A stretch of DNA of 64,000 bases from contig JANCIK010000010.1 of the NCBI GenBank assembly GCA_028532985.1, positions 2,542,001-2,606,000 on the forward strand. Direction: 5' to 3'. Position numbers and translations under genes: made by a program. The stretch comes from Stropharia rugosoannulata. Lineage: Eukaryota; Basidiomycota; Agaricomycetes; Agaricales; Strophariaceae. The first letter of the stretch is position 1. Each line of letters starts with the position of its first letter. A model generated the notes under the pieces. That model did no database searches. It saw nothing but the letters and a program-made list of their open reading frames with translations, and had not been told where the DNA came from. Shown here one piece after another: positions 8,799 through 61,043 of the stretch.

Positions 8799-8803
8799 TG
8801 GTG

Positions 8804-9058: not shown

Positions 9059-9059
9059 G

Positions 9060-34504: not shown

Positions 34505-35733
34505 TGAGAGGTCTGCCGCGGGGCTAGACTCGAATCACAAGAAACACAACACACACAACCCCAGCGGAGCGAGATCCTATCCCTTAGATCGAGCGACGCT
34601 CTTCAGCTAAACGGATTATAGATGTCTACGCTTCTCCTGGTACCTTCCCGCTGAGCGGAGTGTGATGTGTTTCGGGTCTCGTAAGTTCAGTCCGGATGTC
34701 CGCTGTACAGTGCCTGCAAGTTCGTTTTTAAGGAGGGGCTTAATTCTAGAAGTCTCAGATTAATGTCTGGGCGACCTCCGCTGAGCGCAGGGTATCGATA
34801 GTAATGTATAGTTTTGATGGTGGCTCCGCGGGGCTTATTCCGCTGAGTGGGTTTGAGGTCCGGTGACCGATGCAGATGCTCACACAAGCTGGTATTCCCA
34901 ATTGTGCCCCGCTCCGCTGACTATCCAAAGTCGTTCCGCTGGGACTGTCCAAAGTCCTGTTCCACTGAAGCTATCCAGAACCTCGTTCACCCGGTGGTGC
35001 AGTCTCAATTCACAAAACACTACAGCGCGAGTTTTCGTACATGGTTGTACTGACTCCCCGCTGAGCTCTCCAAATGACCCGGTGGCCAGAAGCTATCCAA
35101 AACTTCTATGATTCACAATACACTTCACAGTAAAGACCCTAACAAAAGCTAAACACAGCCCGCTGACGGTCTGGGACAGAGCCCAACACACAGATCTAGT
35201 GGGTAGACAATTGCTTGATTTCCGTAGTTACAATTACAAGTTTATATAGACGCGTGCTGTGTACTAATTTAGGTGGAGAGTAAATACTAGCAACGCCGGA
35301 CCAAAGGTCCGCTGGGCGCATGTACCTCCGCTGGGCGTTTTGATGACTACTCCGCTGAGCGCAACCTGATCCCGTTGCGTCGCCCGCCTCCGCCGAGAGA
35401 CGCCGTTAAACTCCGCTGAGCGATTCCTTCTTGGTTATTGAGGTCTGGTTACCGCTGTCAAAGTTCCCCAGCGGAGCCCGTGCTGTGCGCATTGTTCATT
35501 CCCTCGGGCATCACACGCTCCAGCGCGCGCGCCACGGTCACCTGACGAGTGGACTTAGGCAAATTTTGCCTTTATGATGTGTTCCGCTGAGCCCCTTGAG
35601 GCCTCGTCTACACACAGTCCTGCTCATTGCCTTTGATATTTTTACTCAGCTGTACTCCTGTCTTCCGCTGAGAAGACAGTAACCGTTATGTGCTCCGCTG
35701 ACAGCTATCCCGGGTACTTCAACTGTGTACTCA
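34505..35733 (-). repeat. Gypsy 3' LTR, portion left of the KDZ insertion
   Basis: Colinear with 61,272-62,467. On the minus strand this is the end of the LTR (…CTCTCA at 34,505). The KDZ transposon interrupts it after GTACTCA (35,727-35,733). Numerous CCGCTGA words are present. Confidence 0.9.
35727..35733. other. KDZ target-site duplication, left (GTACTCA)
   Basis: GTACTCA here is repeated at 50,034-50,040 on the other side of the transposon. The unoccupied site TGTACTCATGG is present once in the Gypsy 5' LTR at about 62,461-62,471, so the 7-bp duplication is directly demonstrated. Confidence 0.93.
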
Positions 35734-36195
35734 CACATAGGACAGTGCCTGGGTACCGTAATCTATAGTGCTACAGTGAACTATTATTATACCGTAGATC
35801 ACGGAGTTATTTTGAGCCATTGCAGAAGTAGTATACTACCGTGTCACACAGGACTAATAGCTTTCTAGTATATTACCGTGTTTTACGGGGCCATTGTCGA
35901 CAAATGGTGATGGTCGTCAGGGCAAGATCAACCGGCGGTTCTCTATGTTGAGCGGCGGTGTCAAATGGCAGATGGGCTGTGCTAGACCGGCGATTTCGAT
36001 CGTTGACCGGCGCTATTCAAATTCAATATACTACTATTTTTCAGGGGACCAGTGTGAGGCTAGTATATTACCGTGGTTCATGGCTGATTTTGAACAAATG
36101 ATTGTATGAAAACCGGCGGTGCATGATGAGAATCGCCGGTCTGGAATAATAAATGGTATGGGACCATAAATTAATATACTACTATACATCACGGG
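35734..36195 (+). repeat. KDZ left terminal inverted repeat
   Basis: Matches the reverse complement of 49,572-50,033 almost perfectly. Contains several ACCGGCG(G/A) words and TATACTACCGTG-type repeats spaced along the arm. Confidence 0.9.
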
Positions 36196-36254
36196 ACTAT
36201 TGTAAATCATTCTAAATTTGTCTATCGAGACCGCCGGTATGCACAAGGCAAGAT

Positions 36255-37560
36255 GTGGAAGACATGAATTTTCCTGTGGCCCGTTCGTTGACACCTTTCT
36301 TCTCAACCACCATGCAACCCACTTCTGACAATAGTCCTATTGATCTGACAGCCTCTGTATCCTCATTCATACAGACATCTGTCCGTTGCCGCATTAATCA
36401 GACTAAAATTAATTCCCCCCCATCGTCATGGGCTGCACAATTAATATGGGAATGTAATGATATTGTTGATACACTAGTTATGGCATATCAAAACCAATGT
36501 GAGCCTGGACTTACCTGTGTTTTAAAGGACATTACTGATATATGCTAGATTCAACTATATGGAATGTACATGACTACATTCAGAGCTTGACAAATAAACA
36601 GACTGGCAAGAATGAGGCTGTTGAGAAAAAAATGTTGAAGAAGTTTCCGCCTATATTTATGGAGGAGAGATACATTAAGACACCGTGCATTGTAACAGAT
36701 AGGGATGGGAATATTTTGGTATGGTATCTACCTAATGCCATGATGTCGTATATGCAGGTAGGTGATGACAATTGTTGCGCACAATGAGGTCTGACCGTCT
36801 GACCGCCGGCCAGTACGGTCTATGGGAGAATTTAGATCAACTGACCCCATTAATGAAGACCACAAGAAATAATTCAGACTGGAGAGGTGGCCTGGCCAAT
36901 TATCATCAGAAGGCAGCCTGGAGGAAGCCAGGAAATGTGAGTCTTGCCTTAGCATGGTTTGAAATGGGCTATGGGGTAGGTCTATCTATAATTGTAAATA
37001 CAAGAGTTGATGAATGTGTCCAGATGTCGTTACCGCCAGTTGTCAGCAAAAATATCCGTAAGGCCGCCGGTGTTACATGGCTTCGACAACAACATATGTT
37101 CTTTGCCCTTGTGGGTGGTCTACTAAGTGTGGTTAATCCTAGCCAATATGCCGCCGGTCTCAGGATGCTGACATGGCTAGGTGAACACCCGGACCAGGTT
37201 CGGCATGGACAAGAGCTGAAGAGTCTATTGGAACACTGGAATGTGCCTTTTGGCGTGCTCACAGTGATCAACAACAGAGACTCACCACCGCATCGTGACA
37301 CCGGCAGTCACTCGATGTTCGACATTGTCATCAGTTTGGGGACTTATAAGAAGGGGACAATGTCACTGCCTGGATTGGGCTTGGATCTTCATTATCGGCC
37401 CGGAACAATAGTTGCCCTATCGAGCAGGGTAGTTGTTCACAGTGCATACTGTAAAGGGGATCGGACTTGTCTTGTCTTTCACTCAAAGTCTACAATGGCA
37501 GACTATACAAATACTCATAGCACTTGGCCTAATGTGAATATGTTTAAAAGCATAAAATGA
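36255..37560 (+). CDS. TET/JBP-like 2-oxoglutarate/Fe(II) dioxygenase
   Basis: Three exons (36,255-36,498; 36,549-36,757; 36,814-37,560) give 399 residues. The N-part has a linker and the family's ILVWYLPNAM block. The catalytic core shows the iron-binding HxD in PPHRDTGSH, a glycine turn (SLPGLGLDLHYRPG), the distal His in VVVHSAY and the 2-oxoglutarate-binding Arg in KGDRTCLVF, so all expected ligands are present. TET/JBP enzymes oxidise the methyl group of 5-methylcytosine or thymine in DNA. Its location in a KDZ element suggests a role in relieving silencing or marking element DNA (inference). Intron 2 ends in CCGCCGGCCAG, with the element's recurrent word at the acceptor. Lengths and phases are consistent and no stop is seen; a further intron around 36,937-36,977 is possible. 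Confidence 0.88.
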
Positions 37561-37737
37561 TTAAATTGTATTTGTACATAACAAAAATTGGGCAAACGGG
37601 GAAATACAAAAAACTAATTAAAAAGAAGACGAGATGATGATACAACATGAAGAAGGGGACCGGCGGTGCAATGGATCGAAAATGGGATGTTGCCTGCCTA
37701 GACGTCTGAGTCTGGTTCCCCATCTGCATCTGCATCC

Positions 37738-39776
37738 TAATCATCATCATCAGAAGTAGAGGAGTCTGAGTTGGGGCTCCAGGTAGAAGGAAGTGATGTG
37801 CATACCGAGCTATTGTCCGAGTCATCGTCATCGGTGTGGACATCTAAATGCCACCGGCCACACCGCCGGTTGTTAGTACAGCTCGAATCTGTCATAAATA
37901 TTAAGACTTACACATCAGTGGTGAATCTTCATCCCCACTCTCATTTTGCAGGAGATGAAGTGTATCATCTCCTGGTGCGGGAACCTCCATGGGGGCCTCA
38001 TCATCCTCATCAATCTGTTCGAGCGCTTTATGACCGGCGGCGACAATTGTTGAAATCGAGGGCTCATCTTCCCCATCACTGATTTCCATGGGCGTCCCCG
38101 CCTCTTCATTGTCATCGGCCGTCAAATCGATGGGTTGATGCGGGGTATTGCCGTCAGGCATCCCATCTCCAAGTTGTGGCCTTTGCCCAATGAGACCGGC
38201 GGCCTGCAAATCAAGCTCCCTCTGGATCGGGAGTGTTGTGTCGACCAATTGTGGAGTGGGTGTCCTCCGCATTGGGGGTCGTCTCCCCTCCAGGCTAGCC
38301 CGGTAAGCCTCCATTTCTATGGCAGAGGCCCGTCCAGGTTTGGTGACATTGCATTTGGGGAGGGGTCTCGCAGGCAAGACCACCTTGTCCGCCGGTACGT
38401 CCATCGGGGGTTCATCTTCATCATCGGTCTCCTCACCATCTGTCGTGCACGCAGATTCATGTTCATCTGCTTCGTTGTCCCCTTCATCCTCTTCGGTTCC
38501 TTCACCTTCATCATCCACGTCCTCTGCGACTGGGACCTCCATTGGCGGCTCGTCTTCATCCAAGTCTGGCTGGATATTTGATGGACCGGCGATGTCACCA
38601 CCGGCGGTCGTTGGCTCATTCATGATTGTTGCAATGGTGATTTCTCGCCCCTTCCCTTTGCCAATGTGGGTATCCGCGACAGGCCTTTGCTGCACTGGGT
38701 CATTGATTATTAATCTGCCATTGGCGAATGGCTTCCCGGCGATGTATGCAGCCAGCTCTTCGACAGAGGCCACGCCTGAACGAAGTTGGAATGTGCGTGG
38801 GGCTGTCGTAGGACCAGCGGGTGAATTCGAGAATTCATCCGACATCGTGGAGCTTCCCTGAGATGATGACCCAACCGAGGGACTAGGACTGCTGTCTTCT
38901 GGCAGTGGGCTGATGAATCGCGGCAAGAGACAGTTGCGTCCTGCGATTCCGGGGAGAGGTTCCTGGGGGGGATAGGTGTAGGTGTTCTTGCCTGGCGGTC
39001 GAAGGTTCTCCCACATGCTCTCCCTGGGCTCTTGAGGCCCACCTCGCTGTCCCCGTTCGAACTCGCCCTTCAACATCTTGAAATAAAATTCAAGCCATTC
39101 TAACTTTTCATCCTTCTTCAAGCAGGATTCACAAACTTGATCGAGTGTTGGGTTGGACCCCGCCGGCCTTGCTGCGAGTCCTGGAATCTCGACCCATGGC
39201 ACCGGACTGCCAGGGAGATCTGGCATTTGGTGCATGTTGTCGTGGAAATCTATCATGAAAGTTAGAAGTATCTCGAAGTGGTGGCGGATGGAATCGGCGG
39301 TGACTTGGTAGTCCTCGATATCATCCACCGATGCGAGCCACCAAATAGGTGTTGTCTCCGTCATTGACATTAGCAGGACATCTTCTTTTCTCATGAACTC
39401 CGGGTTGTAGGCCGGCGGAATCAGAATGCCATTTGGCCGGCGGGCGATGCCGTAACCGTTGATGGCCAACTGATCTAGTAGATACGGCTGCCTCATTCGG
39501 TATCCTTTCATTACACATGTTGAAATGTGAATCAATGTGAATTCCTGAATAGAACTGTTAACTGTGAAGCAATAATCAATAGATAAAACTCACTATTTCC
39601 TTCATAAGCAGGCAGGCATAGGGGTTATCATGGTGAAGCTCGCCACCAGTGATCGAGTATCTGAGGCCACAGCGGATGCGAAACATGCAGAGGTAAAGAA
39701 GCAGGTTGCACTGCACATGATCGATGCGGGCATCTTCATCGAGGATCGGCATGGGGTTGGTGTTTGAAGAAGACAT
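37738..39776 (-). CDS. KDZ accessory protein with acidic DEPPMEVP repeats
   Basis: Exon 1 is 39,776-39,594, intron 39,545-39,593, exon 2 39,544 to about 37,906. A probable third exon (from about 37,839) adds an Asp-rich tail ending near 37,738; without it the frame stops at 37,901. The N-terminal ~230 residues look globular (WWLASVDDIEDY, a Cys pair in CESCLKKDEK). The C-part is disordered and acidic, with three copies of a DE(D/E)xPPM(E/D)VP motif and a separate IDLTADDNEE block resembling a SUMO-interaction-like patch. No known domain. Shared transposon location and conserved splicing argue that it is real. A role as a partner of the transposase or of chromatin is a guess. Confidence 0.7.
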
Positions 39777-39875
39777 TGTGATGAGAAGGAGTTTGAGTAG
39801 CCGTGGAGGTAAAAATGAAAGACAAGATCAACAGTGCAGAGATGGTTGATTGATAAGGTCACATGTATTCATTCC

Positions 39876-42800
39876 TCAGGCCACATGATACCAGTGGCTT
39901 ATATAATGTACATGTGCCTTACTAAATCTAGCATCTGCTACCCTACCTAATTCATTCCATAAGTTGATCTGTGCCTGTGCATAAGCCTGGAAACCTAGTG
40001 GGTGAGCGTTGAATTGGCCGGCGGCATCATTTGATGGGTTTTGAATGGCGGTTACTGCATCTGCCCAGACATTCCGCCGGTCTTTCCACATATTTGCCAT
40101 ATGCACATAGAACCGGACTGTCCAGTCCATTTCATGCTGACATAGCACAACCTCTTCCTCCCAGCGCATTTTCTGTGCTCTTGCTCGTAGCCAATGAATT
40201 CGATAGACTACAATTGTATTTAGGCACAGCTTGATGAATATCAATAAAACTTACAATCATTGATTCTTTCGCGATTGAGATTTCCTGCGACCGGCGGATT
40301 ATCATCCGGCGGATCCATATTATGTTCTATTCTCCATATCCAAGCCATTCGAGAACTGCTACCCCCCCTTGCATTCGGTTCAGTTATTGATGCACTAGTA
40401 TTTGTATCAGCTTTTGACATGATGGGGAATTGTTGTTCAATGGCAGCCCTATCAGTGTCATCCTTTGCAAGGCGTAGCATTGACAATCTGTTTTCATTAT
40501 ATTTCCGCCGGTGTGTACTGGTTGCCTGTGCCAACACGACCACACGATCCTGAGCTCTGGTGTGATGTGCACCATCTGTCCTCCTGACATCAAATGCATA
40601 TAGCCAAGATTTCTGAATGATTTCTCCACGAATAGATTCCAATAAATCATCAGCATGAGCTTTTCTGATCTTTAGCTCTGTTTTCTGTAACCGGCGGAGC
40701 ATAGATTTATCCTGGGCAGATGCACCGGCGGATGTCAAAATCTCTTCGGTGATTTCAGAAGGGAATGCCATTAGCTGCCTTTCTGGGTCAGCATTACTGA
40801 CTTCTTCATTGGCCACCTCTGCTTCTTCATCCGTTTGTGCACCATCCAGGATGGGAACATCATGTTCATCATTGAAAGAATTCAAAATATCAATGCCCAT
40901 GATGTCAACTGCATTGCGAGAAAATTTGTCCAGCTGCTTGCGAAGTGTGTGCCGGCAGCGTACAAGATCCTGACGCTGAGCCACTGTTGGGTCTCCAGGC
41001 ATATGGCGGACATGGGACCGCAATTCATTTCTAAATAATGAATAAATTGGCTGGTAATAATGATTGACACTACGCACTGCATTTGCTCAGCTTGAATACC
41101 CTGTGAGAGCCATACAGCTCGACCGCCGGTCTCTCCGTTTCGAATTTCATTCTCTGAAAGCTGCACCTCAATTTCTCGCATCGTTGCAGCCTTCTGAACA
41201 GCCGGTCGATAAATGTCCATTGCTTCTGGGTCCTCATCTCGGCGGCGTTCAGCAGCCTCGATCTGTTCCAACCATTCTGGCAGTTTATCCGCCGGCATAC
41301 TTGCGGTAATATCATTATAGTACACAATAGCATCAATTTCTTGATTCACTGCTCGAATATATTTCTTGATGATTGTAGATGGCATATTGACCGTCTTCTT
41401 CCAATTAGAATCGCCCATGTGATCATCGAGTACTTCAGCTCTATGGCCGGCGGTTGCAGTCCGAACACTGCGAGATGTCTTGTTTAGCAGGCTCCACAGG
41501 GTTTCCAGGATTTCTCCGTCTACCATGCCAACACCAGGGATATAGGTAGATGCCCATCTATATAGACATTCTGTCTTGTGGCCATGTACATGCCAGAGAC
41601 CCACTGCACGTATGCATCGAAGTCTTTGTGGCCAAGTGAGACCCTTCATTAGTCGAAATCGCCTAGTCATATTCTTGTAGAACTGACACATAATGTCATA
41701 AATGAACATGACAGTCTCGATGCCGCCGGTGTTGGTATGCTTGAGTGCTTCAGAAATACTGTAGTCCATGCACATTTGACATTCACCCAATTCGAAGTCA
41801 ACAAGGCTGCCTGGACAGAAGCAGCCGTGTCTTGCACATGCCTGTACACCAATCCCTCTGACCCGGCGGCCAGAAACAACCTTTTCACTGTCAAGCTGGG
41901 CACGATGAGAATGGCACGTCGGCGGCTCCTTGAATTTCCTGGAATATTTTTTGGCATCCTTCAAATGCTCCTGGTATGGACCGGCGGCTGTCATGAATGC
42001 CTGGCCGGCTGTCAGATCAATATCATCATGGGCATTCTTTTGATTTAAATGGTCAGCCTTGAAATTCCCATCAGCACAGTACTTGCGAATAAAAAGAAAC
42101 TTCTTGTCATTCTCTTTCCAGTCTTCAGGGAGGTTAATTTCTGGTTGAGGACAAGCAGGGCAAAATAGAGCCAGTATATCGCCGTACATCGATGGTGTCG
42201 TTTTAATCCCTCCGGCGGTGCCACCGGCGGCGTCTTCACTTGCCCCATCTTCACTGTCTGATTCAGACTGTTCTGCAACTGGTGGAGGCATAATATCCTC
42301 ATTTGGTATTTCATTGTCAGCCAGGATCCGGACATCGGGGATAGCTGGTGGGTCAGGTTCTGATTGCCATAGCCCATGTGCTCTGCCACGCATGGTCCAC
42401 ATCTTCATGTTCCGAAATTGTCTACTGAGCCGGCGGAGCTCACGATATCGATCCAATACTGCCTGTGGGAAGGCAGGGCAGGTCAACCGGCGGAGCTTCG
42501 TGTAATACTGATATGCAGATGTCTTGCACTCCAGGTTAGACAGCCTGAAGTCCCGAAGAACAGCAAATGTGAATACAGTCTTGATCACATCAAAGGAGGT
42601 TGGGAATAGTGCCAGCTGCATGTATTGGCTATCCTCCGGCGGCTGATTGTTGCAGTGACATTTGACAGCCGGCAGGTGATGAATGCCATTCACCTCGACA
42701 ATTGTGACAAATGGATTACCATGGGTATCATTTTGGGCTGGCCTCGGTAAGACTCGAGGGTAAGTAACATCAATATCAAAGACAATTGTGTCTTCATCGA

Positions 42801-43579
42801 TGTATTCATCAGCGACTTCCTCAGCTTCGGGTTGCAGACCGGCATTGTAAGCCCGGCGGAGATCATTTTCATGTTCATCGCCATATTCTCCCTCTTGCAT
42901 TTCCTGTACGTTGTTGTAGTCGACCATTGTATTAGGACATCTATTTCCTTGATGGCCAAGATGAAGCTTTACACCAACTTGCCATAGTGCCGCCGGTGTG
43001 AAAGCACTACCATCCCAACGAAGAATACGATGAAATGGCATGAAATCATGAATCTGCTGGCAACATGTCGTGCATAAGAGTCGTCCTCCAAAGCATGCCT
43101 TACACTTCCATTTGGCAGCAGGTGCATTGCAAGCATTGCATGTATCGATCCCTCTGGCAGGTGCATGAGATGCCATCACAATCTTCAAGTGGGTATCCCT
43201 TCTGACCAGCCATTCTCTAAGAAAATCGTTTTGCGACTGCACAATTTAATATATGCAGTGTGCAATTCATGTGGGTGATATAACATACCTTGCCTCTATA
43301 TACTGGTAAATCCAAGTTTTGTAGGTTTTCGATAACCTGATCCTCAGTTATATCTCCAGCATAGTCTAGACGGTCAGGTACTTCCTGTGGTTCAAAGCCT
43401 GGTGGAACATCTGGAATAGCAGGAATAGCAGGAATAGTCGGTGCTACATTCTCTGCAATGGGTTCCCCACCACGTTTGCGCTTCTTTGTAATGACCTTTC
43501 CTCTATGGTCCCGCTCTTCTATCTGGATGCCACCAGCTTGATTTGGAACATTGTGCTGGGTTATACGGACACGGCGCAT
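39876..43579 (-). CDS. KDZ transposase with CxC2-type zinc module; one frameshift
   Basis: Exons: 43,579-43,289, 43,236-40,255 and 40,207-39,876. The basic N-terminus (KKRKRGG) is followed by a CxC2-type cysteine cluster (CNACNAPAAKWKCKACFGG, then CTTCC and PFHRI). The KDZ catalytic region has Asp in GNFKADHL, Asp in FIYDIMCQF, the H-rich LWHVHGHKTEC and the Glu block VDGEILETLWS. The helical C-terminal domain ends in RWEEEVVLCQHEMDW-type sequence. The reading frame shifts by one base near 41,078 after GIQAEQMQ, downstream of the DDE residues. This is either an inactivating single-base deletion or a sequence error. The gene is divergent from the plus-strand gene at 43,738 and would mobilise the element by cut and paste. 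An alternative start is 43,642. Confidence 0.88.
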
Positions 43580-43737
43580 TGGGAGTAGACAGTTGCGTGT
43601 GCATTCAGTGTTCGACCTTATATTAAGAAACCAATGGCACATGTGTTCTGCCTCATGTCGTTATCAATAAATGTATCTATTTTAATCTACTTATAAGCAG
43701 GAATGCATCAGTCTATTTTTTCATCCCTTTCCCCATA
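43580..43737. promoter_or_regulatory. Divergent promoter region between KDZ transposase and DNA-binding gene
   Basis: Only ~160 bp separate the two start codons. It contains an ACCAATGG (CCAAT-type) box near 43,630 and AT-rich tracts, but no CCGGCGG word, making it one of the few motif-free intergenic gaps in the element. Confidence 0.5.
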
Positions 43738-46029
43738 ATGCCTACACCAGAAGAAACCCCGGCCTCTACACAGATATGGACAGCGAAGGAGTTGGAGATT
43801 TTGAGGGATCATGTCGAGGGATATCGTGCACAGGTCAAAGAGCGGAAGGGCACTTTCCTCGCTGAAAAGGTCATCAAAATGATCAAAGCATTGTGGGGAT
43901 CACGATACAAAAAAAGTAATCCCAATTTCGATGAAAAGATGCAAGAGGAATGGAAGAAGAAAAAAAGGGTATGCCCCAAGCAGTGTATGCAATGTAACGC
44001 CTAATGCTGTAACAGTCAATATGCAATTGGTTCAAGAATAATGCTAAGATGTCGAGGCGCATGAAAATTAAAGGTTTTAACATGGATGTTACCTTTGACT
44101 CTGTTGTCATTGCACGTAAAGGCAAGGAGATTGAAGAGGAAGCAAAGTGCCGTGCACGAAAGGCACTGGGTGGGAGTGATCAGGAATCTGATGGTGACGA
44201 CGACAGGGTCGCGGATGATGAGGCCGGCGGTGGGGCCGGCGGTTACAGTAGCCGTTCCTGGATCAAATATTATGCAGGGGCAAAGAAGTATATTAAGGAG
44301 ATGCTGACAGATGAGGAACGAGATGCAATCAAAATGGAGGTGATGGAATGGAAAGCGAAGGGTGTGCCACCAGAGGTTCAAGCCAAGTCAGTTTTTGATT
44401 ACACCGCCGGTCCATTACTAAGAGACTGTATAGACAAGCTGTGAAGCACTGTTCAGACATTTGTCGTGAAGTGGATAGGAAAATGTTTGAGAGCATGGGT
44501 GTGAGATCACTCTGGATCACAACTTTTGATAAACCAGACGGACATGCTACATTCACAATGTGAGCATCTCTGCAGTTGACATGAATGTTCCTGACCGCCG
44601 GTCAGCTACGATACCCAGGTAGTGCAGCCTAATGCGCCAATGAATTTTCCCAGCTTTCAAGAATTTGATCCGAATAGCTACACAGCAATTAGGACCAGTT
44701 ACATAAAATACATTGAGCACATCACTGCTCTCAAGCGTGGCGAGGCCGCCGGTGCCGAATCTGTAGAACACCAGGCCAGCTCTCATCCATCAGGGATGCC
44801 CTGGATGCCTGCCTATAATCCAAAGGGACGCAAAGAAAGTCTCAGGGTCATGCAGGGGATGATCCGCAAGTACTACGGATTGCACTTCGGTATGTGTATA
44901 TGTTTTCAACGTAATTTGACAATTAATGTATGTACCTGATTGAGTAGCACTAGCAACGAAATCATCCAGGGGCCCACCGTACACATCAATCAAAAACAAG
45001 CACAATTGGCAGGACTTCGTTGACCCTCTCTACATGCCTCATGGCATCTCGTTTCGGGACCCTTCATCATATAACAGGTCAACAGCATTTGATATTCTCA
45101 ATCTCATCCGCCGGCGCCAAGCGGCAAATGAAATTCCCTTCAAATTTCATGCCATTCCTAATGGCGCTGTTGAACTGGTGCCTCAGATGTACCCTGAAGA
45201 GTTATTCACATCATTCGCTATACCAGACCCAGACCTCGGGATGAATAGAGAGGATGATATCAGTTTGGCTGACCTTCAACAAATGGCAGAAGTCTACACT
45301 GATGACTCTATCACCACAAAGTTGCAGGATAGTGATGCACTGCCGGTCATGATTCTCGATCGGCGGCCATCAGATGATGACAATATGTCAGGAAGTCCAG
45401 CACCCCTGACGAGACTCAAGCACAAGGAGTCATCCATATCTGAAGACAATGTGGACCGCCGGCCTAGACAAATAACTAATAGGATTAGATCCAGGTCAAG
45501 ATTCATTGCAAAAAAGTTTATTCTCAAGAATCGTAAGGGTAAGAAGAAAGAATCAGTTTCGGAACATGATTCAGATGTGGAGGACCAGTCAGACAAGGTG
45601 GAAGAATTAAGAGACCGGCAGTTAACATCTGCATCAGGATCAGATGACGACCGCCGGTCTGACAGCAAAGATGAAGGACCCAGCAGAAGAAATACATTCC
45701 GTGCCCAGAAAGGCAGACCCCCTGGACTGCGGGATATATCGAATACAAGGGATAGAAATCAGTCAAGGGTAAGAATTGTCGAACCTGATGCAAAGGAAGG
45801 AGGAACAAAGCAGACAAAACACAAGACTGTTTCCAGAGGATGCTCACACAGCAAGAATGGAGATGGAGAAAGTGAACGCCGGTCTTCCAGACGAATTGCT
45901 TCAAGACCGGCGGTCTCGGATATCGAGAATGTGGTTGAAGTCAAGAGGCACCGAGGACGACCAAAGTTAAGGGAACATGTTGACAATGCTCACGGCATGC
46001 GCCATTCAGCTCGCCTAGCCTCGCGCTGA
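43738..46029 (+). CDS. Homeodomain-like and AT-hook DNA-binding accessory protein
   Basis: Five exons (43,738-43,968; 44,016-44,386; 44,425-44,559; 44,606-44,889; 44,948-46,029) give 700 residues in consistent phase. The third junction needs a short 38-bp intron, so a frameshift there is the alternative. Residues ~15-90 are helical and end in ICNWFKNNAKMSRRMK, resembling a homeodomain recognition helix (WFxNxxxK). The middle contains helix blocks also seen in other agaricomycete transposon-linked ORFs (MLTDEERDAIKMEVMEWKAK). The C-terminus is basic and disordered with an AT-hook-like KRHRGRPKLRE. Two of its introns contain CCGCCGGT, one directly at the acceptor. It is the best candidate in the element for binding the dispersed CCGGCGG word (inference). 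Confidence 0.75.
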
Positions 46030-46447
46030 CCAGCCTCGACTGACCACAACAGTGGCCACAAAAAATCTTCAACAAATAGACGATCGGGGAAATAATGAAA
46101 CCGCCGGTCTCACCGCCGGTCTCACATGTCACAATCAGTCGAAAATGTACATAAAGTTACCTAGGGATAGATATATTGTGATACATTTAAATTAACTTCT
46201 AACCTGACATGACGCCGCCGGCCACAATTTGCAACTTCGCATATTAAGGACTTCACACATTTTGCATCAATGTATATTTTTACCTGACTTCACTCAAACT
46301 GATGTTTACAAGCAAATGACAAAAAATTAATTTTACTTTGACTTCTGAAGTCAAAGTTTCAAGATATACTGATACATTAAATTGCCCTTGATCTAACTTC
46401 AAGGGGCGGTATATACAGACAAAAAAAATCGAGATGCAAGGAGGATG
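46030..46447. other. Convergent intergenic region of the KDZ element
   Basis: Between two convergent genes; AT-rich except for three CCGCCGG words at about 46,100, 46,113 and 46,212. No ORF. Confidence 0.6.
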
Positions 46448-48700
46448 TCACCGGCAGCCTTTGGTGCGAGTGCGCTTCGCCGGTGGCTCCTCGTTCTCCT
46501 CACCCTCATTCCCTCGCTTGGCACCGGCGGTCGTCCCTGCTGTCTTGCTCTTTCCTCCACCCTTCCCCCTCTGACTCCTCGTCTTCTTCACAGGCGCCTC
46601 AACCTGCGACACCGAGTCCAGCTCATCCTCCTCGCTGGCGCCCTCGTCATTGTCTCCCCCCTCAGCCTTCCCATCCCCCTGCTCGGTGGGCGACTCTGCA
46701 GCCACGACCATAGGCGTGTCGCTGTCAGTGCCCACGTTCTCCTCGTCTTCTTCTTCGTGTTCTGGGGACTCAGGAGGCGGTGTGCGCACCTCGATGAGAT
46801 CTTGGGCGGAGGGGGCAGGTGGGCGAGAAGGGACAGGCGAAGGGGAATGGGCAGGGGATGGAGACGGGGCAGGTGGACGGTGCGGGACCGGTGAAGGCGA
46901 TAAAGGAGGGGGAGTGGGGGCCGGTGGTCCTGATGTGGCGGCGGTCCAGTCGACACCGGCGGTGGCGTCTTCCGAGGGACTTGGATGTCGAACGGCGTCA
47001 TTGACCTTGACTTCGGCCGTGACGTCTGTGCGACGACCTGCTCCAGCAGGCTCCTCAGAGCCCGCTGTCCCTCCATCAACTCCGTCAGGGCTCGCCCATG
47101 CCCCTCAACCACCACCTTCAACTCCTGGACCTTGTCTGTCAGGTCCTGCGCATCAGCCCGTATCGTCGTCAGTTCCTCGACCGCCTCCGTTGTCTTCTCG
47201 AGCGTCTTCGAGCTCCTGGTTCTGGCGCTGGAGCGCCCGAACGTCTGTTGTCGCGTCGTCGAATCCGCGCTCGACGTTGCAGGTGATCACTCGCGTTTGC
47301 TCCAACGTCATCATAATGACGTCCCCAACGTTCTCGGCGTCCGCGAAGACTTTCTTGCGGTCCTCGTCGACGTAGCGACTCAGGTGGTGGTCCCAGGGGG
47401 CGACTTTGTCGGCCAGTGTCATGGCGCCCGGCGTCTTGAGGCAGGGCTTCTTGTACATGTATTGACATGTACTACAAGCCCTGACGGGGTTCTCCCGCAT
47501 TTCCTTCTCATGCTCCGGGGACTCGACGTAGCAGGGTGTGCCGCGATTGATACAAGACCAACAAGGCGTCTTGGTCTTGTAGCAATCGGCGGGCATCCGC
47601 CCCTTAGACGCGGTAGATCGCGCGCGTGCCTTCCCCTTGCCCTTGGCCGCCGGTTTCCCATCGGACTCGCTGTCATCGTCCACTTGCCTCGATTTCCTCG
47701 ACGCCGCTGTCCTCGCCTCTGGCTCGCTCTGGGTCGCCTTGCCCTTGCCCTTCTTCGTGGGACGCTGTACCTCTTCCTCCTCGTCCTCGTCGTCCTCGTA
47801 TTCGCTTTCATCGTCCGTGTCCACGACGAATTCATGTGATTTTGTTGCCGCCGGTTGTCTAGACGGGCCAGCCACCGGCCTGGTGGCTGGCCCCTTCGCA
47901 TTCTTGGCCTTGGGCTTGACAGTGGCCTCCTTCTCGCTGGCCTTGACACCGCGGTCGCCGCCTTCTTCTGCTTCGGCACCTTCTGCAAAGGCAGCGCCAC
48001 GACGACCTCAACAACGTCTTTGAACGCTGCTGGGTGTGCGCCCGTGGGGGACGGTGTCTTCTCCCGTGTCGCGATTTTCGATGACTTCGCCTTGGCGGCG
48101 ACAGGGGCAGGTGGTGCGGGAGGGGGAGAGGCAGGCGCAGGGGGGGGTGGGGAGGCCTTCTTCGCCTCTGTTGCTTTGGCCGCCGGTGCAGCCTTGACCG
48201 GCGGTGCAGGCTTCACCCCGACAGTCGCCGGTCGATTGACTAAGAATGTGTCAGAAATGAACAAAAGGTTATAATATTTATTACTCACCAATGATAGGCA
48301 TGCTGCCTATATCCACTTCCACCTTCCCCTGCTCCTGCCTCCGTAGGACGTATAGCCCCGTCTCCACCATCTCCTTGAATGCGTCCCAGCACACGTTGTC
48401 TGCGTCTCGGCCATCGGAATTCGCGTCCTTGGACAACAGCTTGCGCACATAGTTGTAGAGCGTGAGCCCTACAGTGCGCCCAGCAGCCGACTGCTTGCAG
48501 ACTTGAAGTTCAACCTATTGTTAATGAATGGTCAGTAAACTAAACATAGAACATGTAACAAAAAAACTCACCAAGGACTTCCAAAGTCTGGACCTCTCCT
48601 TCAAAAACAGTTGGCTCCCTCCCTCCCAAATTCGCACACAGTCGTGATGGAATGCGACGATTGCGTCTCGGATTTCAAGGTTGCTGTGAGACGAAGCCAT
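46448..48700 (-). pseudogene. KDZ accessory Cys-cluster/coiled-coil protein, with two apparent frameshifts
   Basis: Exon 1 (48,700-48,572) and exon 2 (48,514-48,289) encode a small helical domain (IVAFHHDCVRIWEGG, AAGRTVGLTLYNYVRKLL). Exon 3 from 48,239 is a Pro/Ala/Lys-rich linker, an acidic stretch, a Cys cluster (PCWSCINRGTPC ... RACSTCQYMYKKPC), a coiled coil (DLTDKVQELKVVVEGHGR) and a Pro-rich, then acidic/basic tail ending at 46,448. The frame changes by one base near 47,955 and again near 47,205. Both sides of each break fit one protein, so these are single-base indels or sequence errors. The Cys pattern resembles a fungal zinc-binding cluster; DNA or protein binding is likely but unproved. 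The segment is notably GC-rich. Confidence 0.7.
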
Positions 48701-48879
48701 GAAGAAAGGTAAAGGGAATTATTGAGAAGAAGAGGACGCGGGGTGTGGGAGAGAAGAGAAATGTTCCGTTGATGGCTGTGCGCTATTATAAAGTTCAACC
48801 ATCTACAAATAATAGTCAACATTCCCACGCAAAGCAATCAACAGACTTCAGCTTTTCAAAACCAAAGGCAACATCTGGA

Positions 48880-49571
48880 CATCGCCGGTCTTAGTAAAAC
48901 CGCCAGTGCATATCAATAATGTGCATTTTTATAAAAAATTTGTCACTGGTGTGGGCTACCATAGCATAATAATTAGGTATATACCTTTAGCCAACACACA
49001 TCGCCGGTCTCAGTTAGACCGGCGGTGCATAATATTGTTGTACGATAATCTGGGCAGGTATGGCCTCAATTGTAATGGTCTATAATATTGTTATTATGCT
49101 GGCTAATAGTCATATACTACACTTGCAACGGTCCCATTATGCATAGTAGTATATTCATTTCATGAGTATGAACATTGATCACCTGAGACCGGCGATGTAT
49201 ACAACACCTCTGGTTTCCAATTTCCAACAATCATATGTGCAACATGAGCCCATATACCATTGTAATATACCAGACTCACAGATGTATAGGAGTATCTTAA
49301 TTTATGGTCCCAGACCATTCATTATCCCAGACCGGCGATTCTCAGCGTCCACCGCCGGTTTTCATACAATCATTAGTTCAAAATCAGCCATGAACCACGG
49401 TAATATAATAGCCTCACACTGGTCCCGTGATGTATAGTAGTATATTAATTTATGGTCCCATACCATTTATTATTCCAGACCGGCAATTCTCATCATGCAC
49501 CGCCGGTTTTCATACAATCATTTGTTCAAAATCAGCCGTGAATCACGGTAATATACTAGCCTCACACTGGT
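48880..49571. repeat. KDZ right subterminal region with ~148-bp tandem repeats
   Basis: Landmark CCAGACCGGC recurs at 49,327, 49,475 and 49,623, a 148-bp period (the last unit lies in the inverted repeat). Each unit contains ACCGGCGA, ACCGCCGGTTTTC and a GGTAATATACTAGCC-type segment. The left end has only one such unit. No gene. Confidence 0.85.
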
Positions 49572-50033
49572 CCCGTGATGTATAGTAGTATATTAATTTA
49601 TGGTCCCATACCATTTATTATTCCAGACCGGCGATTCTCATCATGCACCGCCGGTTTTCATACAATCATTTGTTCAAAATCAGCCATGAACCACGGTAAT
49701 ATACTAGCCTCACACTGGTCCCCTGAAAAATAGTAGTATATTGAATTTGAATAGCGCCGGTCAACGATCGAAATCGCCGGTCTAGCACAGCCCATCTGCC
49801 ATTTGACACCGCCGCTCGACATAGAGAACCGCCGGTTGATCTTGCCCTGACGACCATCACCATTTGTCGACAATGGCCCCGTAAAACACGGTAATATACT
49901 AGAAAGCTATTAGTCCCGTGTGACACGGTAGTATACTAGTTCTGCAATGGCTCAAAATAACTCCGTGATCTACGGTATAATAATAGTTCACTGTAGCACT
50001 ATAGATTACGGTACCCAGGCACTGTCCTATGTG
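49572..50033 (-). repeat. KDZ right terminal inverted repeat
   Basis: Reverse complement of 35,734-36,195 with few differences; ends CACTGTCCTATGTG at 50,033, followed by the GTACTCA target duplication (50,034-50,040). Confidence 0.9.
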
Positions 50034-50040
50034 GTACTCA

Positions 50041-50225
50041 TGGCCTGTACAGTCCGCTGAACCCCACACAACCGCCCGCTGAACACACGCGTGATGATTT
50101 GTGATGCACGCGCTGAGCGCTGAGACGGCTGACCAGGCTAGTCACCGCTCCGCTGTACCCCTGCACTTCAGCCCAAAGCGCCCGCTGTAGCCACTTACAG
50201 CCTTGGTGTAGACGCAGGCCTGTCA
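50041..50225 (-). repeat. Gypsy 3' LTR, portion right of the KDZ insertion
   Basis: Colinear with 62,469-62,653. On the minus strand this is the LTR start, TGACAGGCCTGCG at 50,225. With 34,505-35,733 and one target copy removed, the LTR is about 1,414 bp. Confidence 0.9.
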
Positions 50226-50238
50226 TCTCCCCCTCACT
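50226..50238 (-). other. Polypurine tract next to the Gypsy 3' LTR
   Basis: On the minus strand AGTGAGGGGGAGA abuts the LTR start TGACAGG, the expected plus-strand primer position. This fixes the retroelement orientation as minus. A near-copy of the tract lies internally at 53,116-53,131. Confidence 0.75.
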
Positions 50239-50245
50239 AAAAATT

Positions 50246-50263
50246 TTGACTGTCCTCAGTCAA
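50246..50263. promoter_or_regulatory. Conserved hairpin, copy 1
   Basis: TTGACTG-TCCT-CAGTCAA, a perfect 7-bp stem with a 4-nt loop, a few bases from the polypurine tract. Copy 2 at 53,137-53,154 has a different stem sequence but is still perfectly paired. Confidence 0.55.
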
Positions 50264-50656
50264 GCTCCTCCTGTATTTTTAGGTCTAGTACTGTTCCTGT
50301 GTGCACTTTTAGCGCCTCATTTTCTATTTTCAGCCTTCCCCAGCGCCTATTTGCCTATTTTTAGTTCCCAGTCGTCTCCGTCGGTCACTTCCATTGTTAT
50401 CTGGTTCTCCCTCCGTTTAAGGATATTCCTTCCCTTTTTCAGCATTGCACCACCGCTTCTGAACCGCCGCTCTCCATGTAGATTACCTGAAAGTTTATGT
50501 GACGCCGCCACCCATTATTTTATCTTCCAGAAAATTCCTCTGCTGTGCGGGCGTTCTAGTTTATAAACGGACTGTCTGGCGTTCTTCTGATGCCCATTCC
50601 CTCTTTTTCCTCTCGTTGGCAGACCACCTGCACCCTCTCCTGCACTCTTCTTTGCG

Positions 50657-52756
50657 ATGTTCCTCCGAAATTTCGACCGCCGCCGCCGCGCACAAGAGCG
50701 TGCTGAGGCAGAATTAGATGCCCAAGACCGCTTCCGTCGTCTCCGCCCCACGCTCGCCATTTATCAAGAATTCGAGACCCTGGCCGGCGCTGACCGCTTG
50801 GACGAGGAGGGAATGACTTGCTTGGACGAGTTACGGGTGATCATCGACAACGCGGTCGAAGACCACCTCTCCCTTCATTGCTCCGATGGTCTTTACCACA
50901 CAGGTGTTCGAGAGCTGTGCATCCTCCTCTCCGCTGTAGCCGACATGCTCGTCGCCGATGACCCCTCGCTGGCCGCGACGCTACAAGCGCGTCGTTGGTT
51001 TGTAACCGGCTACAAACCCATCGCGTCCTATGTACATTTCTTTGCGACCGCCTTCCCCACGCAATGGGATGGTACCGACAATCCTGGCCCTCGCCCGCTC
51101 ATGAACTCCGCTGCTGGGGCGCCCGCTGCCACTACCACTTCCGCTGTTGCGACCTCCGCTGGCACAACCTCTACTGCCCAGCCCTTTATCGATCTAACTG
51201 CGCTCCCTCTTCCTGGAGACGATATCCAGATGATTTCCGACGACGACGACGCCCGCAGAGCTTCCCCATCCCCTATAGCGCGCAAGGACAAGCGCAAGCG
51301 CCTCCCTTCTCCCCCCATCGTGGTTCCGCCCGTCCCTTCCGCTGACAAGCCTCCCAAACGGGCGTGTCAGGCCGCCATCGTCGCCAATGCTGCAATTGCA
51401 GGTATGTTCCTCTTTTGCTTCTCGGCTCCTATTTTCTTAACTAACTTGGCTACTTTCCTCACAGCTGAGATGGCCGATCGCCTTTCTCCCGAGCCCCTTA
51501 CCCCCTTCCTTCGTCCCAGCGCTGGCGCCTCCGCCGTTATTACAGACAGCGGAATTGAAGAGATCACAGTCCTACGAGCGGACAGCAACAAGGTGGTTTA
51601 TAAGTCAACCTATCCTATTCTGAACGTCCTCCCCCCCGTTTACTCTGCCAAGTTGGCCCTCGCTGGCGTTCCCCTCCCCGAGTCCATCGGAATGGACTTA
51701 CTTCCTTCTGAAAATCGCCTCCAGGGCGCCATAATTGTACGTCTCTCCCTTTTCTCTCTTTTCCTCCCGCTCCGCTGACATCTTTCCTTCAGAAGGGCAT
51801 GGTGTGTAACCACTGCGCCCGCCCATTTAATGCCCAGATGAATGAGGGCTTGCATCAATGCATCTGTCGCGGTTGGGGCCGTAACTGCTGTACTTGCAGC
51901 AGTCAGCAGAAAGGCAAGTGCCTCTTCTGCTGTGAGCCCGCTGAGATCGACAAGGCCATCGAAGACACTACGCTGTGGCACCGCACTTCCTTAGCTAGTA
52001 AGTCCCTTTTGTCTTAATTACTCATTTTCTATATTAACCTCTTTCTAAGGTCTCCTTTCCGGGTTCTCTCGTCTCAGCGCCTTCTCTGAACAGGCGCGCA
52101 TTGCTGAAGAGCAGCGCCGCTCCGCAGAGCGCCTTTACTTTGCCCAACTGGTGGAATTGGTCCAGCTTGCCCGCGCTATGGCCCTCACCCTGCCTACTGG
52201 CATCGTCGTCGGCCCTCGTTTCCGCGATTGCGAGACCTTCGACGCCCTGCGCAACATGGACATAGAACGTCTCTGCGATGCGTATTCCTCACTGTGCAAG
52301 CCTGTCGATCTCGAAGATCCTGCGGTGGTAGCTCCGCTGGCCAAGTTCTACGACCCCCGCTTTCCGCGGTACGACCCTTCGACTTTTATCCCCGCTCCCC
52401 AACCTGATCAAGCGCTCACCCTGAGCACCTTTCACGCCACCGAAGAACAAGTCTTTGAGGAAGCCAGCGCGCGCATGGTCAGCGACACCGACCACCTCTT
52501 GGCCGAAGAGAAGAAGAAGAAGAAACGTTCGTCTAAGAAGGTTACAGCGGAGCGTCCTGCTGTTGCGCCCGCTGAGGTCCCCTTCCCCTCCTCTCCTGTC
52601 GCCGGTCCTTCTCGTCTTACTCCACTGACGGCTCCTTCCAAAGTACGGCCAACCCCATCTGCTCGCCCCACCCCCCAACTTCCTCCTCTGACCTTGACGC
52701 CTTCGCGCGTCCCCAGCGAGGCTGATGCCGATGAGGTTCCCGCGGAGGGCGTTTGA
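50657..52756 (+). CDS. Antisense-cassette gene 1: Cys-rich protein, four exons
   Basis: Exons 50,657-51,401, 51,465-51,736, 51,793-51,997 and 52,050-52,756 join in consistent phase to 642 residues. The N-part is basic then helical. A disordered middle contains DDIQMISDDDDARR and basic KDKRKRLPSP. Exon 3 encodes a Cys cluster (VCNHCARPF ... CICRGWGRNCCTCSSQ ... CLFCCEP) typical of zinc binding. The C-part has a helix and a Lys-rich stretch (EEKKKKKRSSKK), then Pro-rich sequence. A TATA candidate, TATAAAC, is at 50,562. No family name recognised. It lies antisense to the Gypsy pol; many TCCGCTG words fall in coding and intron sequence. Intact by reading frame. Confidence 0.72.
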
Positions 52757-53183
52757 ATTTGGGCGCGCGCTTTTATTTGTTTCTTTCAATTTTCTTGCCC
52801 TTCTTGTTCTCCTTACTTTACCTGGCATATGTAAAGTAGTCTATCTTTCTGTCACAATCTAAATATGCCTCTTTTATTCTTGTCTCTTCTGTGTGAGTCT
52901 GCAGTGAGTTTGAAATTTCTCAAGTCCCTTGCCATAGACTCCGCCCAGCTGAGCAACCTGCAGACCTCTGAGGAGGTGTCCTAATTGTTTACCCAGGTTC
53001 TTCTACACCTGACTCTCTCCTGCTGCGTGTCCCTGGTTTCTTTCTCTTCTTGTCATGTCCGCTCAGCGGACTTCTTTTCCCCACACATGCTCCGCGGCCA
53101 ATTTTTTTAGCGGGCTCTCTCCCCCTCACTATAAAATCAACTGTCCCCAGTTGACAGACTCTTTACTCCTCTTTTTCTCCGTC
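52757..53183. promoter_or_regulatory. Intergenic region with internal polypurine-tract copy and hairpin copy 2
   Basis: Contains TCTCTCCCCCTCACTA at 53,116-53,131 (same as the sequence at the 3' LTR edge), a TATAAAA at 53,130-53,136 and hairpin TCAACTG-TCCC-CAGTTGA at 53,137-53,154. The start codon at 53,184 is 30 bp further. It may act as the promoter of gene 2 and/or a central polypurine tract. Confidence 0.5.
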
Positions 53184-53655
53184 ATGCAACGCTACCAGCG
53201 TACGAATGTCGCCCGCCAGTTCACCACGATCCTCAAGCAGCTGGCCGTCCACACGGAAATCACAGAAGACTCCGCTGAGACAACAACCCACCTGCCATTA
53301 CAGTCCGCCCAGGCCGTTGTCCGCGCACTGGTAACGCTCAGTTTCGTAGAGTCCCCTCTGCTGACCATCTCCACAGGACCGCATCGCCCTTCCGCTGAGA
53401 TTCATCGACTTTAATCGCCAGTTCCTGGCGTTCCTCATGACCATCGTGTTTTACGAAGCCCGCGCTCAGCGGAAGTTCAGCGATGATCATTTTGATCCTC
53501 GCTTACTCAGTAATGCCGCTCTACGCATTCTTGACCGATACAGTCATCTGGGCATGCCCTTCCACCCGCTGCTTTCTTCCGAACGAAATGAGGCCGAAAT
53601 TCGCGAAGTCGATCCTGATGCCGCGCTCGTCGTAGACGACGTCAGCTCTGATTAG
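53184..53655 (+). CDS. Antisense-cassette gene 2, two exons, unknown function
   Basis: Exon 1 53,184-53,330 and exon 2 53,377-53,655 (intron GTAACG...CACAG, phase 0) give 141 residues. It is mostly helical, with a hydrophobic block FIDFNRQFLAFLMTIVFYEA and an acidic C-terminus (DPDAALVVDDVSSD). Size and single-intron layout resemble the next gene, suggesting distant paralogy. No domain recognised. Confidence 0.6.
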
Positions 53656-53718
53656 GATGTCCTGCTGCGCTGGCACTCTGCGTATATAATTCTATCCCCT
53701 GTATTTCTATACGCAAAC

Positions 53719-54262
53719 ATGCCTTCTTTGTCCGCTGAGAGTAACCTCTTGTTAGTTGCCCATTCAGATCCTCGCATCCTTCGTCTCGACGCTCTGCCCA
53801 GGCGTCCGCTGAGTGCTATCCTTCCCATCGACCTAGCTCGAGTCTGCCGAATATATGTAACTGCCCTTCATTATATCCTGGACTCCGCTGTGGAGGAACA
53901 GCTACCTATGAGCGTCTGCCTCCCGCTGCTCAACCGAGTTCAAGATCACGCCGTAAGCCCCTTTTCGCTGTCCATGTACTCCCACTGAGTAGTCCGCGCA
54001 GCGCGGCCTAGAGCTGACCGAGTCCACCTGTCATTCACCGCTTCTTTCTCATCTCTGCGCTCAGCTGTATTACACCGAACTTGTGCTTCGCCTGTGTGGT
54101 ACCAACGACGCTGAGCGCTACGGCGTTCTTAATCACACCGAACACTTTCAACGCCTCCATTATGCCGCCCAGCATTTCTACCAGGAGGACTTCTTCCCCG
54201 TCTGTCCCCTTCTCTCTTCCTTCTCCGCTGCACTGAGACCTGGATTATGTCAGGATGTTTGA
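53719..54262 (+). CDS. Antisense-cassette gene 3, two exons, unknown function
   Basis: Exon 1 53,719-53,952 and exon 2 54,065-54,262 (phase 0) give 143 residues of helical character (LARVCRIYVTALHYILDS). A TATA-like TATATAA sits about 35 bp upstream of the start. The intron contains PuCCGCNCAGC-type words. No domain recognised. Confidence 0.58.
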
Positions 54263-54714
54263 GGCATTGCACCCCTTCCTTGGTTTACTCCGTAGAGTAC
54301 CCTTGTTACAGTAACCAGAGTAAATGGCTCTACATGTGGTGCCTCCATAGCTATTTGAAATGACAAGTATCTAGTTAGGCACTATGTATTGTCGGTGCCA
54401 ATACCTGATTCGGACATAATTTTTCCAAATGCGGTAATCACACGATCAGCCTCCGCTGAGCGCTTCCGGCTAGGCGCGCCTCTCCGCTGGATCTCATTTC
54501 GTCTCTCAACTGCTCCCGCTCTGCACCCTGTTTTATGCGAGCTTGCATGTGGTGGTCTGTTTCTACCTCCAGCGTTCATACCATAACTCCGCTGGGAGTC
54601 TGGTCCGCTGGGATGCCACATTCCTCGCCACTGGCCGCCCCTCATTAGGTCCTCTGCACTCCGCTGAGCCTATATATATGCCCTACTCTCATACTTTCAA
54701 TCACTCAGCCACTC
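54263..54714. promoter_or_regulatory. Intergenic region with TATA box of cassette gene 4
   Basis: TATATATATG at about 54,669-54,678 lies ~40 bp upstream of the ATG at 54,715. Six or more TCCGCTG words (for example near 54,450, 54,480, 54,588, 54,603, 54,660) crowd this segment. Confidence 0.5.
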
Positions 54715-55285
54715 ATGTCCAATGCACCCGCTCCGCTGTACAACTTTAGTAATGTCAAGCATCAGCTGGCATTAATCCAAGATATCAGAGGCTTGGCTTC
54801 CGCCATGCCTTCCAACTATACCGGGAGCCTCGAGCTTCTGGCTATTGACTTAGTACGCACAACACTCAGCTGGTCCGCTGGGTCCTTTACTCCGCTGACC
54901 ACTCGAACTTTTTAGAACCGCTGGCGTGATCCCCACGGCGGCATTACTCGTATCATTAATAACAGCGAGGCTGTTGATATTCTCAACGAGATGCGTGCCA
55001 TCTACACCTCCTTAGAGGCGGATCACCACTTCCGCACTTTCTCTCCTGCTGCCAACGCTTTTATCACTCTGCATGAGCAAGTTTTAAAAGCGAAAGCCGC
55101 TGCCTCGCGTCAGCGCATGCATACTCCCACTGGACCAGTACGCTATGCGCTTGCTGCCTCTTATTATCTATTAACCGTCCGCTCAGCGCAACATTCGCCT
55201 CCTCTCGCGCTCCGCTGCCGATCCTGAGACGGTCTCTGCCCCTGGAGGTACCTCCTCCCCCGATTCCGATGACGACAAGGTGTGA
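54715..55285 (+). CDS. Antisense-cassette gene 4, three exons, unknown function
   Basis: Exons 54,715-54,852, 54,916-55,137 and 55,187-55,285 join in phase to 152 residues. Helical N-part, a central helix (EAVDILNEMRAIYTSLEADH), an Ala/Lys-rich stretch and a Ser/Asp-rich acidic tail (SSPDSDDDKV). Both introns contain the TCCGCTG word or its inverse. No domain recognised. Confidence 0.58.
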
Positions 55286-55346
55286 CTGACTTCCTTCACC
55301 CTTTCTAGATATTACTAACATGCAGCTGTACCTCCTCCTTAAAAAG

Positions 55347-56029: not shown

Positions 56030-56149
56030 CGGCCCTCTTAATTATTCCGCTGAGCGCCTCAAAGTGGCCCTTAGCTAGTTTCCTTTGTACCTTTCCCTTT
56101 TAGTTTACCCAATATATCCTATTGTGGTCTCCTTTTCTACTTTGCACTT

Positions 56150-60873: not shown

Positions 60874-61043
60874 TAATACTATCTAGCCTTTTTTGTGCAC
60901 AGAGCCGTGGCCTAAGCCAAGGCCGAGCCACGGCTTGGGCTTGCTATGGCCCACGGCTCAGGCTTGTATTTGAGCAAGCCACAAGCCGTCAGAGCCGAGC
61001 CAAAGCTGCGGCATTCAGGCCGAGCCGAGCCGTAGAAACACTA

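Follow-up and report, generated by a model that had tools for sequence, protein, structure and literature searches.

The transposon and its seven-base word

The 64,000 nucleotides of Stropharia rugosoannulata DNA analysed here (the window; assembly GCA_028532985.1, contig JANCIK010000010.1, positions 2,542,001 to 2,606,000) contain a Kyakuja-type KDZ DNA transposon of 14,300 bp that is packed with one seven-base word, spelled CCGGCGG or CCGCCGG. The element (35734..50033, termini 5'-CA...TG-3'), which represents subfamily A, has ends that read CACATAGG/CCTATGTG and is flanked by a 7-bp target-site duplication, GTACTCA, at 35727..35733 and 50034..50040. Its terminal inverted repeats of 470 bp (35734..36203, plus strand, and 49564..50033, minus strand) are 99% complementary, and a 148-bp unit is repeated 3.2 times in tandem in the subterminal region at 49281..49748, with words at 49352, 49500 and 49648. 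Many relatives of the element are present in the 48 Mb genome. The lineages compared with it are A' (C1:2399915-2413052, loci L051 and L052), B (C11, loci L055 and L056, counts for which omit the left 1.6 kb), D (C13, loci L060 and L061), C59 (the copy on C9) and C53 (the copy on C2).

From left to right the element encodes a TET/JBP oxygenase (36769..37560, plus strand; Pfam Tet_JBP, E 4.3e-14), an acidic protein of 562 amino acids (37901..39589, minus strand) that is related to proteins of A' (49%) and B (28%) and has zero Pfam matches at E<=1, the KDZ transposase (39876..43660, minus strand), gene W (43627..46029, plus strand), which consists of three open reading frame (ORF) pieces and has counterparts in A', B, D, C59 and C53, and gene Z (46448..48700, minus strand), the start of which was placed near 48700 by eye. 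The transposase gene comprises several ORF pieces, presumably separated by introns, the main one of which (40882-43245) matches KDZ (PF18758, E 3.7e-43) and CxC2 (PF18803, E 3.6e-20). It has 291 homologues at E<=0.001; among the 120 matches listed all but two have both KDZ and CxC2, and the best named relatives come from Flammula, Psilocybe and Galerina. Z encodes a zinc-cluster-like protein, the proposed reader of the word. In the window copy its frame is broken (46448-48306) and 284 amino acids are open; seven other A copies encode 613-622 amino acids. A block of seven cysteines (47441..47584, minus strand; C142-C189 of the 284-residue piece) is invariant, 7/7, in the aligned A, A' and B proteins.

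In a preliminary description of the window about 58 words had been seen in the element on both strands, against one or two expected by chance, and about five elsewhere, four of them in or beside a satellite. Counting confirmed these figures: the 14,300 bases hold exactly 58 copies, 29 CCGGCGG and 29 CCGCCGG, which top the ranking of canonical 7-mers inside the element, and the remaining 49.7 kb hold five (at 4572, 5131, 5328, 5656 and 26361), two of them in, and two within ~600 bp of, a tandem repeat of 160-170 bp at 5163-5868. The chance level was ~1.8 words in 60 dinucleotide-preserving shuffles of the element. The longer form ACCGGCGG, which had been called usual, accounts on either strand for 40 of the 58. 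The words start at 35932, 36113, 36231, 36803, 37064, 37151, 37660, 37863, 38034, 38196, 38389, 38601, 39160, 39412, 39437, 40018, 40074, 40291, 40306, 40505, 40691, 40725, 41123, 41289, 41447, 41723, 41863, 41981, 42212, 42224, 42430, 42487, 42636, 42853, 42990, 44224, 44236, 44404, 44595, 44746, 45108, 45456, 45651, 45907, 46101, 46113, 46215, 46524, 46956, 47647, 47848, 48180, 48198, 49019, 49352, 49500, 49648 and 49829. Two lie in each terminal repeat, three in the TET region, seven in the acidic-protein ORF, 20 in the transposase gene, nine over W, six over Z and nine in gaps and subterminal parts; the density is similar from end to end and its boundary coincides with the element ends, as had been claimed. 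The 41 words in the ten ORF segments of the coding part use all three frames, in both spellings, and exceed by far what 1,000 synonymous-codon shuffles gave (mean 6.2, maximum 14). For automatically chosen ORFs the figures were 38 words against a mean of 8.0 and a maximum of 17 (300 synonymous shuffles). Protein constraint is thus insufficient to account for the word, in agreement with the earlier view, and codon usage and base composition do not explain it either.

Conservation and change of the word among KDZ lineages

The two spellings are a single palindrome, CCG-S-CGG, formed by two everted CGG half-sites with one base between them. Because the spellings are reverse complements that are unlike only at the middle base, the site can be read from either side. 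In the alignment of A and A' six of the 28 sites were changed at the centre, and 6/6 of these changes exchanged G and C, whereas the background at G/C positions was 6.2% for G<->C and 14.8% for other changes (Fisher p 0.0007 for the centre pattern). Centre changes between A and B (one flip, one other) and between A' and B (two flips, one other) gave no significance. When sequences with one mismatch to ACCGGCGG were counted in A, a middle A or T occurred zero times. Doublets of words exactly 12 bp apart were seen in the window (42212/42224, 44224/44236 and 46101/46113) and in B (L055: 933/945, 1885/1897, 5858/5870 and 7863/7875). Everted-N13 and direct-N9 peaks of half-site pairs in A, A' and B reflect these doublets, which perhaps serve cooperative binding.

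A, A' and B contain 58, 59 and 60 sites, respectively (4.06, 4.49 and 4.28 per kb; 1.8-1.9 sites expected in each), the 59 words of A' being held in 13.1 kb. A and A' are 80% identical across the 8.2 kb aligned. Between them CCG-S-CGG was retained at 21/28 sites, compared with 7/22 for other all-G/C 7-mers (p 0.004); the corresponding values were 21/28 and 5/17 between A and B (p 0.005), and 18/24 and 6/23 between A' and B (p 0.001). CpGs were kept between A and A' in 52/58 cases within words and in 153/302 elsewhere. In decayed copies the words kept amounted to 1/21 (L033), 1/16 (L038), 1/14 (L043), 2/17 (L041), 3/16 (L035), 3/20 (L045), 4/19 (L039) and 10/26 (L030), and the loss was mostly by CpG to TpG or CpA changes. 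As living lineages keep the word and dead copies lose it, it is held by selection and not by a low mutation rate. The word is real, lineage-specific and conserved in three subfamilies. Genome-wide, 56 of the 100 matches listed for ACCGCCGGT belong to copies of A or A' on C1 and C2 (counted by eye).

The base 5' of the half-sites is distributed as A67 C4 G29 T16 in A, A59 C7 G42 T10 in A' and A19 C5 G42 T54 in B. Outside the transposase the difference in this respect is marked between A and B (chi2 55.9, p 4e-12) but not significant between A and A' (p 0.17), and within the transposase A and B are alike (p 0.88). The main transposase exon is closer to A in B (94% identity) than in A' (91%), and the transposase region as a whole (window 39876-43660; L055/L056 ~6430-10214) is 91-95% identical between A and B, the other proteins reaching 28-75%. 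Identity to A, for B and A' in turn, is 46% and 65% in Z, 28% and 49% in the acidic protein, and 37% and 49% in the long W piece, so that all three group A with A'. The element is thus a mosaic, in which the flank of the word goes with the accessory genes and against transposase kinship; a transposase shared by A and B amid diverged other proteins seems to reflect module exchange between elements. A change of the word with the accessory genes, which had been considered beforehand, was in this way observed, the flank switch between A and B following Z, W and the acidic protein. In B a G+C-rich inverted repeat with perfect arms of 257 bp (L055 2-837) occupies the inner end of the 857-bp left terminal repeat and belongs to the part omitted from the B counts.

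Related KDZ copies lacking the word had been named as evidence against the idea. The word is kept in A' and B; in the 20 kb around C59 and the 15 kb around C53, however, CCG-S-CGG occurs zero times. These distant relatives have different words built likewise from CGG pairs, by which the general idea is strengthened. CCGA/TCGG is the top over-represented tetramer in three such elements (201 versus 105, 171 versus 69 and 144 versus 66) and ranks 135 of 136 tetramers in A. In a scan of CGG/CCG pairs with spacers of 0-30, D contained 39 inverted CGG-N3-CCG pairs (2.0 expected) and 17 inverted N7 pairs (2.2 expected), and three partial copies of its lineage contained 8-9 N3 and 8-10 N7 pairs (0.2-0.6 expected). 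Inverted N7 and N2 pairs numbered 19 and 15 in C59 and 13 and 14 in C53, where ~1.5 were expected. Everted N1 pairs numbered five, zero and two in D, C59 and C53, and inverted geometries 0-6 in A, A' and B. Within ORFs the N3 pairs of D (28; mean 3.6, maximum 11) and the N7 pairs of C59 (19; mean 3.2, maximum 9) and C53 (10; mean 1.6, maximum 5) surpassed 300 synonymous shuffles. The scan gave nothing similar in a control stretch, window 6500-34000.

Word clusters predicted for two largely unread copies turned up in the genome-wide matches, of which 50 palindrome sites were listed per pattern. Among the matches listed, the B copy at C1:2207300-2223363 has at least 10 TCCGSCGGA sites (0.11 expected), seven of which lie beyond the 5.4 kb that had been read. 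The D copy at C1:2698173-2715449 has, with the same limit, at least 13 TCGGNNNCCGA sites (0.20 expected), 12 of which lie beyond the 4.6 kb that had been read, and at least 13 TCGG-N7-CCGA sites.

Z as candidate reader of the words

In the lineages read, a cysteine-rich protein is encoded at the same place in the element, and the DNA of the element is packed with CGG triplet pairs in a lineage-specific geometry. Well-studied zinc-cluster regulators of fungi usually bind CGG pairs (PMC5559640). The block of A reads C-x2-C-x6-C-x18-C-x2-C-x7-C; B has x6 in the second block, and C59 and D have C-x2-C-x6-C twice. Two such blocks are the hallmark of Zn2Cys6 proteins, and the order of the halves looks swapped with respect to the canonical one, the Z-type protein resembling a zinc cluster with exchanged halves. 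When the halves were exchanged, Pfam Zn_clus (PF00172, cut-off 21 bits) gave 23.0-23.6 bits for D, the only one above the cut-off, 15.1 for C59 and 14.4 for B. In a weak structure model a helix is predicted behind the cysteine blocks, and 12 of the 15 matches to the Z of the C family lie within ~13 kb of a C-family transposase match.

Judging from these sequences, the chances are somewhat better than even that the words serve as binding sites for the element's own protein Z. Z proteins would bind the words of their own element, and bound Z would act, probably, against silencing of the element. This anti-silencing function is our first choice, at a probability of roughly 0.45. It is preferred because the words cover the whole element, exons included, which points to a need along the full length comparable to that of VANC, the effect of which spreads across the entire VANDAL element (PMC10398659). 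A word-reading mechanism of this sort is plausible. A wider proposal can be put forward only tentatively: the Kyakuja lineages in one genome may carry private barcodes, consisting of a CGG geometry (everted N1 with an A or T flank, inverted N3, inverted N7/N2) across all their DNA including exons, each of which would be read solely by the lineage's own permuted zinc-cluster protein steering effectors (the oxygenase where present); barcode and reader would co-evolve, and the barcode would constrain the proteins that it crosses.

A number of results weigh against Z as the reader of such words. In natural order the A, D and C59 blocks score 12.4, 19.4 and 11.3 bits, all under the Zn_clus cut-off, and the whole C59 protein gave zero Zn_clus match. 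Exchange of the halves lowers A to 10.0 bits, and of three hand-made controls for the exchange one reached 17.8 and two had no score. The predicted structure is of poor quality (pLDDT 54) and had no structural match. The flank switch is tracked equally well by W, the acidic protein and Z. Direct N15 and N3 pairs outrank the inverted geometries in C59 (25 and 20) and C53 (21 and 26); codon usage or tandem repeats may account for this. Conservation of the words in the other lineages falls short (within D p 0.12-0.19; C59 versus C53 p 0.03-0.05; D versus C59 p 0.04 and 0.31). Genome totals of the patterns are near those of reversed controls (TCCGSCGGA 326 versus 315; TCGGNNNCCGA 558 versus 570; TCGG-N7-CCGA 477 versus 414), the signal therefore being clustering alone, and none of the matches listed for the three patterns falls in the KDZ copy at C1:2382652. 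Among the lineages, reading covered A, A', B, D, C59 and C53 and did not extend to the KDZ families with 40-44% identity in the transposase. Finally, CpG decay amounted to 213/615 within 25 bp of words and 182/630 beyond 200 bp, and no protection was seen. This comparison covered 37 of 50 loci with some overlap, L047 and L048 included and L049-L050 excluded; the B, A' and C59-type loci were left out, as were those of the window itself, duplicates included. The lack of a CpG footprint argues against any protection that would last in dying copies; protection of live copies is not contradicted by it.

A special case of the anti-silencing reading is that the words address the TET/JBP oxygenase, Z recruiting the enzyme so that methylcytosine would be oxidised along the element. 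In its favour stand the TET/JBP ORF of A, which has counterparts in B (64-66%) and in the C families (34-44%), and the proposal that fungal transposon TETs counter methylation (Kojima, 2025; PMC12730594), although those of the Agaricomycotina are speculated in the same account to work without a specific target (section 4.2). A' copies with a transposase and a zinc-cluster-like gene were found twice on C1 and once on C8. The A' subfamily, however, gave zero TET match apart from a 30-residue remnant in the copy read, which yet has the full word density, and the two C1 copies are 99.4% identical over the 5,358 bp compared. Because A' keeps its 59 words without TET, the oxygenase is dispensable in cis, although A or B elements may provide it in trans. 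CpG decay being no lower near words either, the part given to TET/JBP in the preliminary description was not borne out, and we regard this special case as doubtful.

It is still less likely that the sites serve transposition, the transposase (through CxC2) or Z coating the element against self-insertion or for a synaptic complex. A CxC2 cysteine cluster is present in the transposase and sites occur also in the terminal and subterminal repeats, but they are evenly dense and not concentrated at the ends, and their flank is independent of transposase relatedness. We know of no eukaryotic transposase that coats its element in such a way. Reading by a host protein, a zinc-cluster factor or a silencing factor, would agree with the usual CGG-pair target of fungal regulators (PMC5559640) and is nevertheless very improbable, since the words differ among lineages within one shared host and are conserved, whereas selection would tend to remove a target of silencing. 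An artefact, whether due to codon usage or G+C content or to the expansion of satellites or recombination between copies, could draw on the three words in the 148-bp tandem repeat, the 12-bp doublets and the transposase module common to A and B; with both kinds of shuffle control exceeded, words outside coding sequence as well as in each of the three frames, and conservation above that of composition-matched 7-mers, it is hardly credible.

Known systems and the surroundings of the element

The parallel with VANDAL/VANC of Arabidopsis drawn in the preliminary description holds in part. Both systems have a dense, element-private short motif, and VANDAL families differ in motif and encoded protein (PMC5735166), just as the KDZ word is element-specific, conserved and changes with the accessory genes. 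The parallel fails for motif layout and transposase type: VANC21 motifs are mainly non-coding and form tandem arrays, with one orientation at high density (PMC5735166), whereas the KDZ words are palindromes of CGG half-sites in equal orientations (29/29), 41/58 of them in ORF segments, and the transposase is KDZ, the candidate reader of another kind and the host a fungus. Ten ORFs compared with Pfam (E<=1) matched no Mutator or VANC family. Motif binding and demethylation have been demonstrated for VANC, while in the KDZ case they would be putative functions.

With TET+ Kyakuja of Agaricomycetes the element shares the KDZ/CxC2 transposase, the TET/JBP gene, the 7-bp duplication and the 5'-CA...TG-3' termini (PMC12730594, section 3.2). 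Two Laccaria Kyakuja families described there are without terminal inverted repeats; the element of the window has them, at 470 bp and 99%. Their absence, being stated for those two families, is perhaps not defining for the group. The main text of that paper contains none of the words 'zinc', 'CpG', 'VANC' or 'accessory', and no earlier account of such a KDZ word system was found in the literature searched. Gal4-class Zn2Cys6 proteins are alike in their inverted or everted CGG pairs with lineage-specific spacing and in their C-x2-C-x6-C blocks. Z differs in cysteine halves that appear, by eye, swapped, in a linker of 18-24 residues and in a Pfam score under the cut-off in natural order; sites of the Z type cover the transposon, whereas Gal4-class sites sit in promoters.

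To our knowledge, very few cases are known of a transposon telling its own DNA from that of its host. The lineages that live side by side in this genome provide several candidate pairs of reader and word, with built-in controls. If Z binds as predicted, they would form a natural experiment on the evolution of binding geometry under selection within coding sequence, and a route to what directs transposon-borne TET enzymes, speculated to be target-free in these fungi (PMC12730594).

Around the KDZ insertion lies a second word-rich element (34560-35733, 50034-56600 and 60770-62600), the word of which, TCCGCTGA/CAGCGGA (TCCGCTG), occurs 65 times in the window; AGCGGA is biased in strand, 43/53 being on one strand in the part counted. 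The ORFs at 50591-51778 and 52049-52756 beside the KDZ copy gave zero Pfam match. At 1963-2160 the window has a lone KDZ terminal-repeat fragment of 94-95% identity. AAAAGAC is dispersed around the decayed KDZ copies L038, L041 and L044 (14, 15 and 31 copies in 4.2-4.6 kb) and is also present at spots in window 0-24000.
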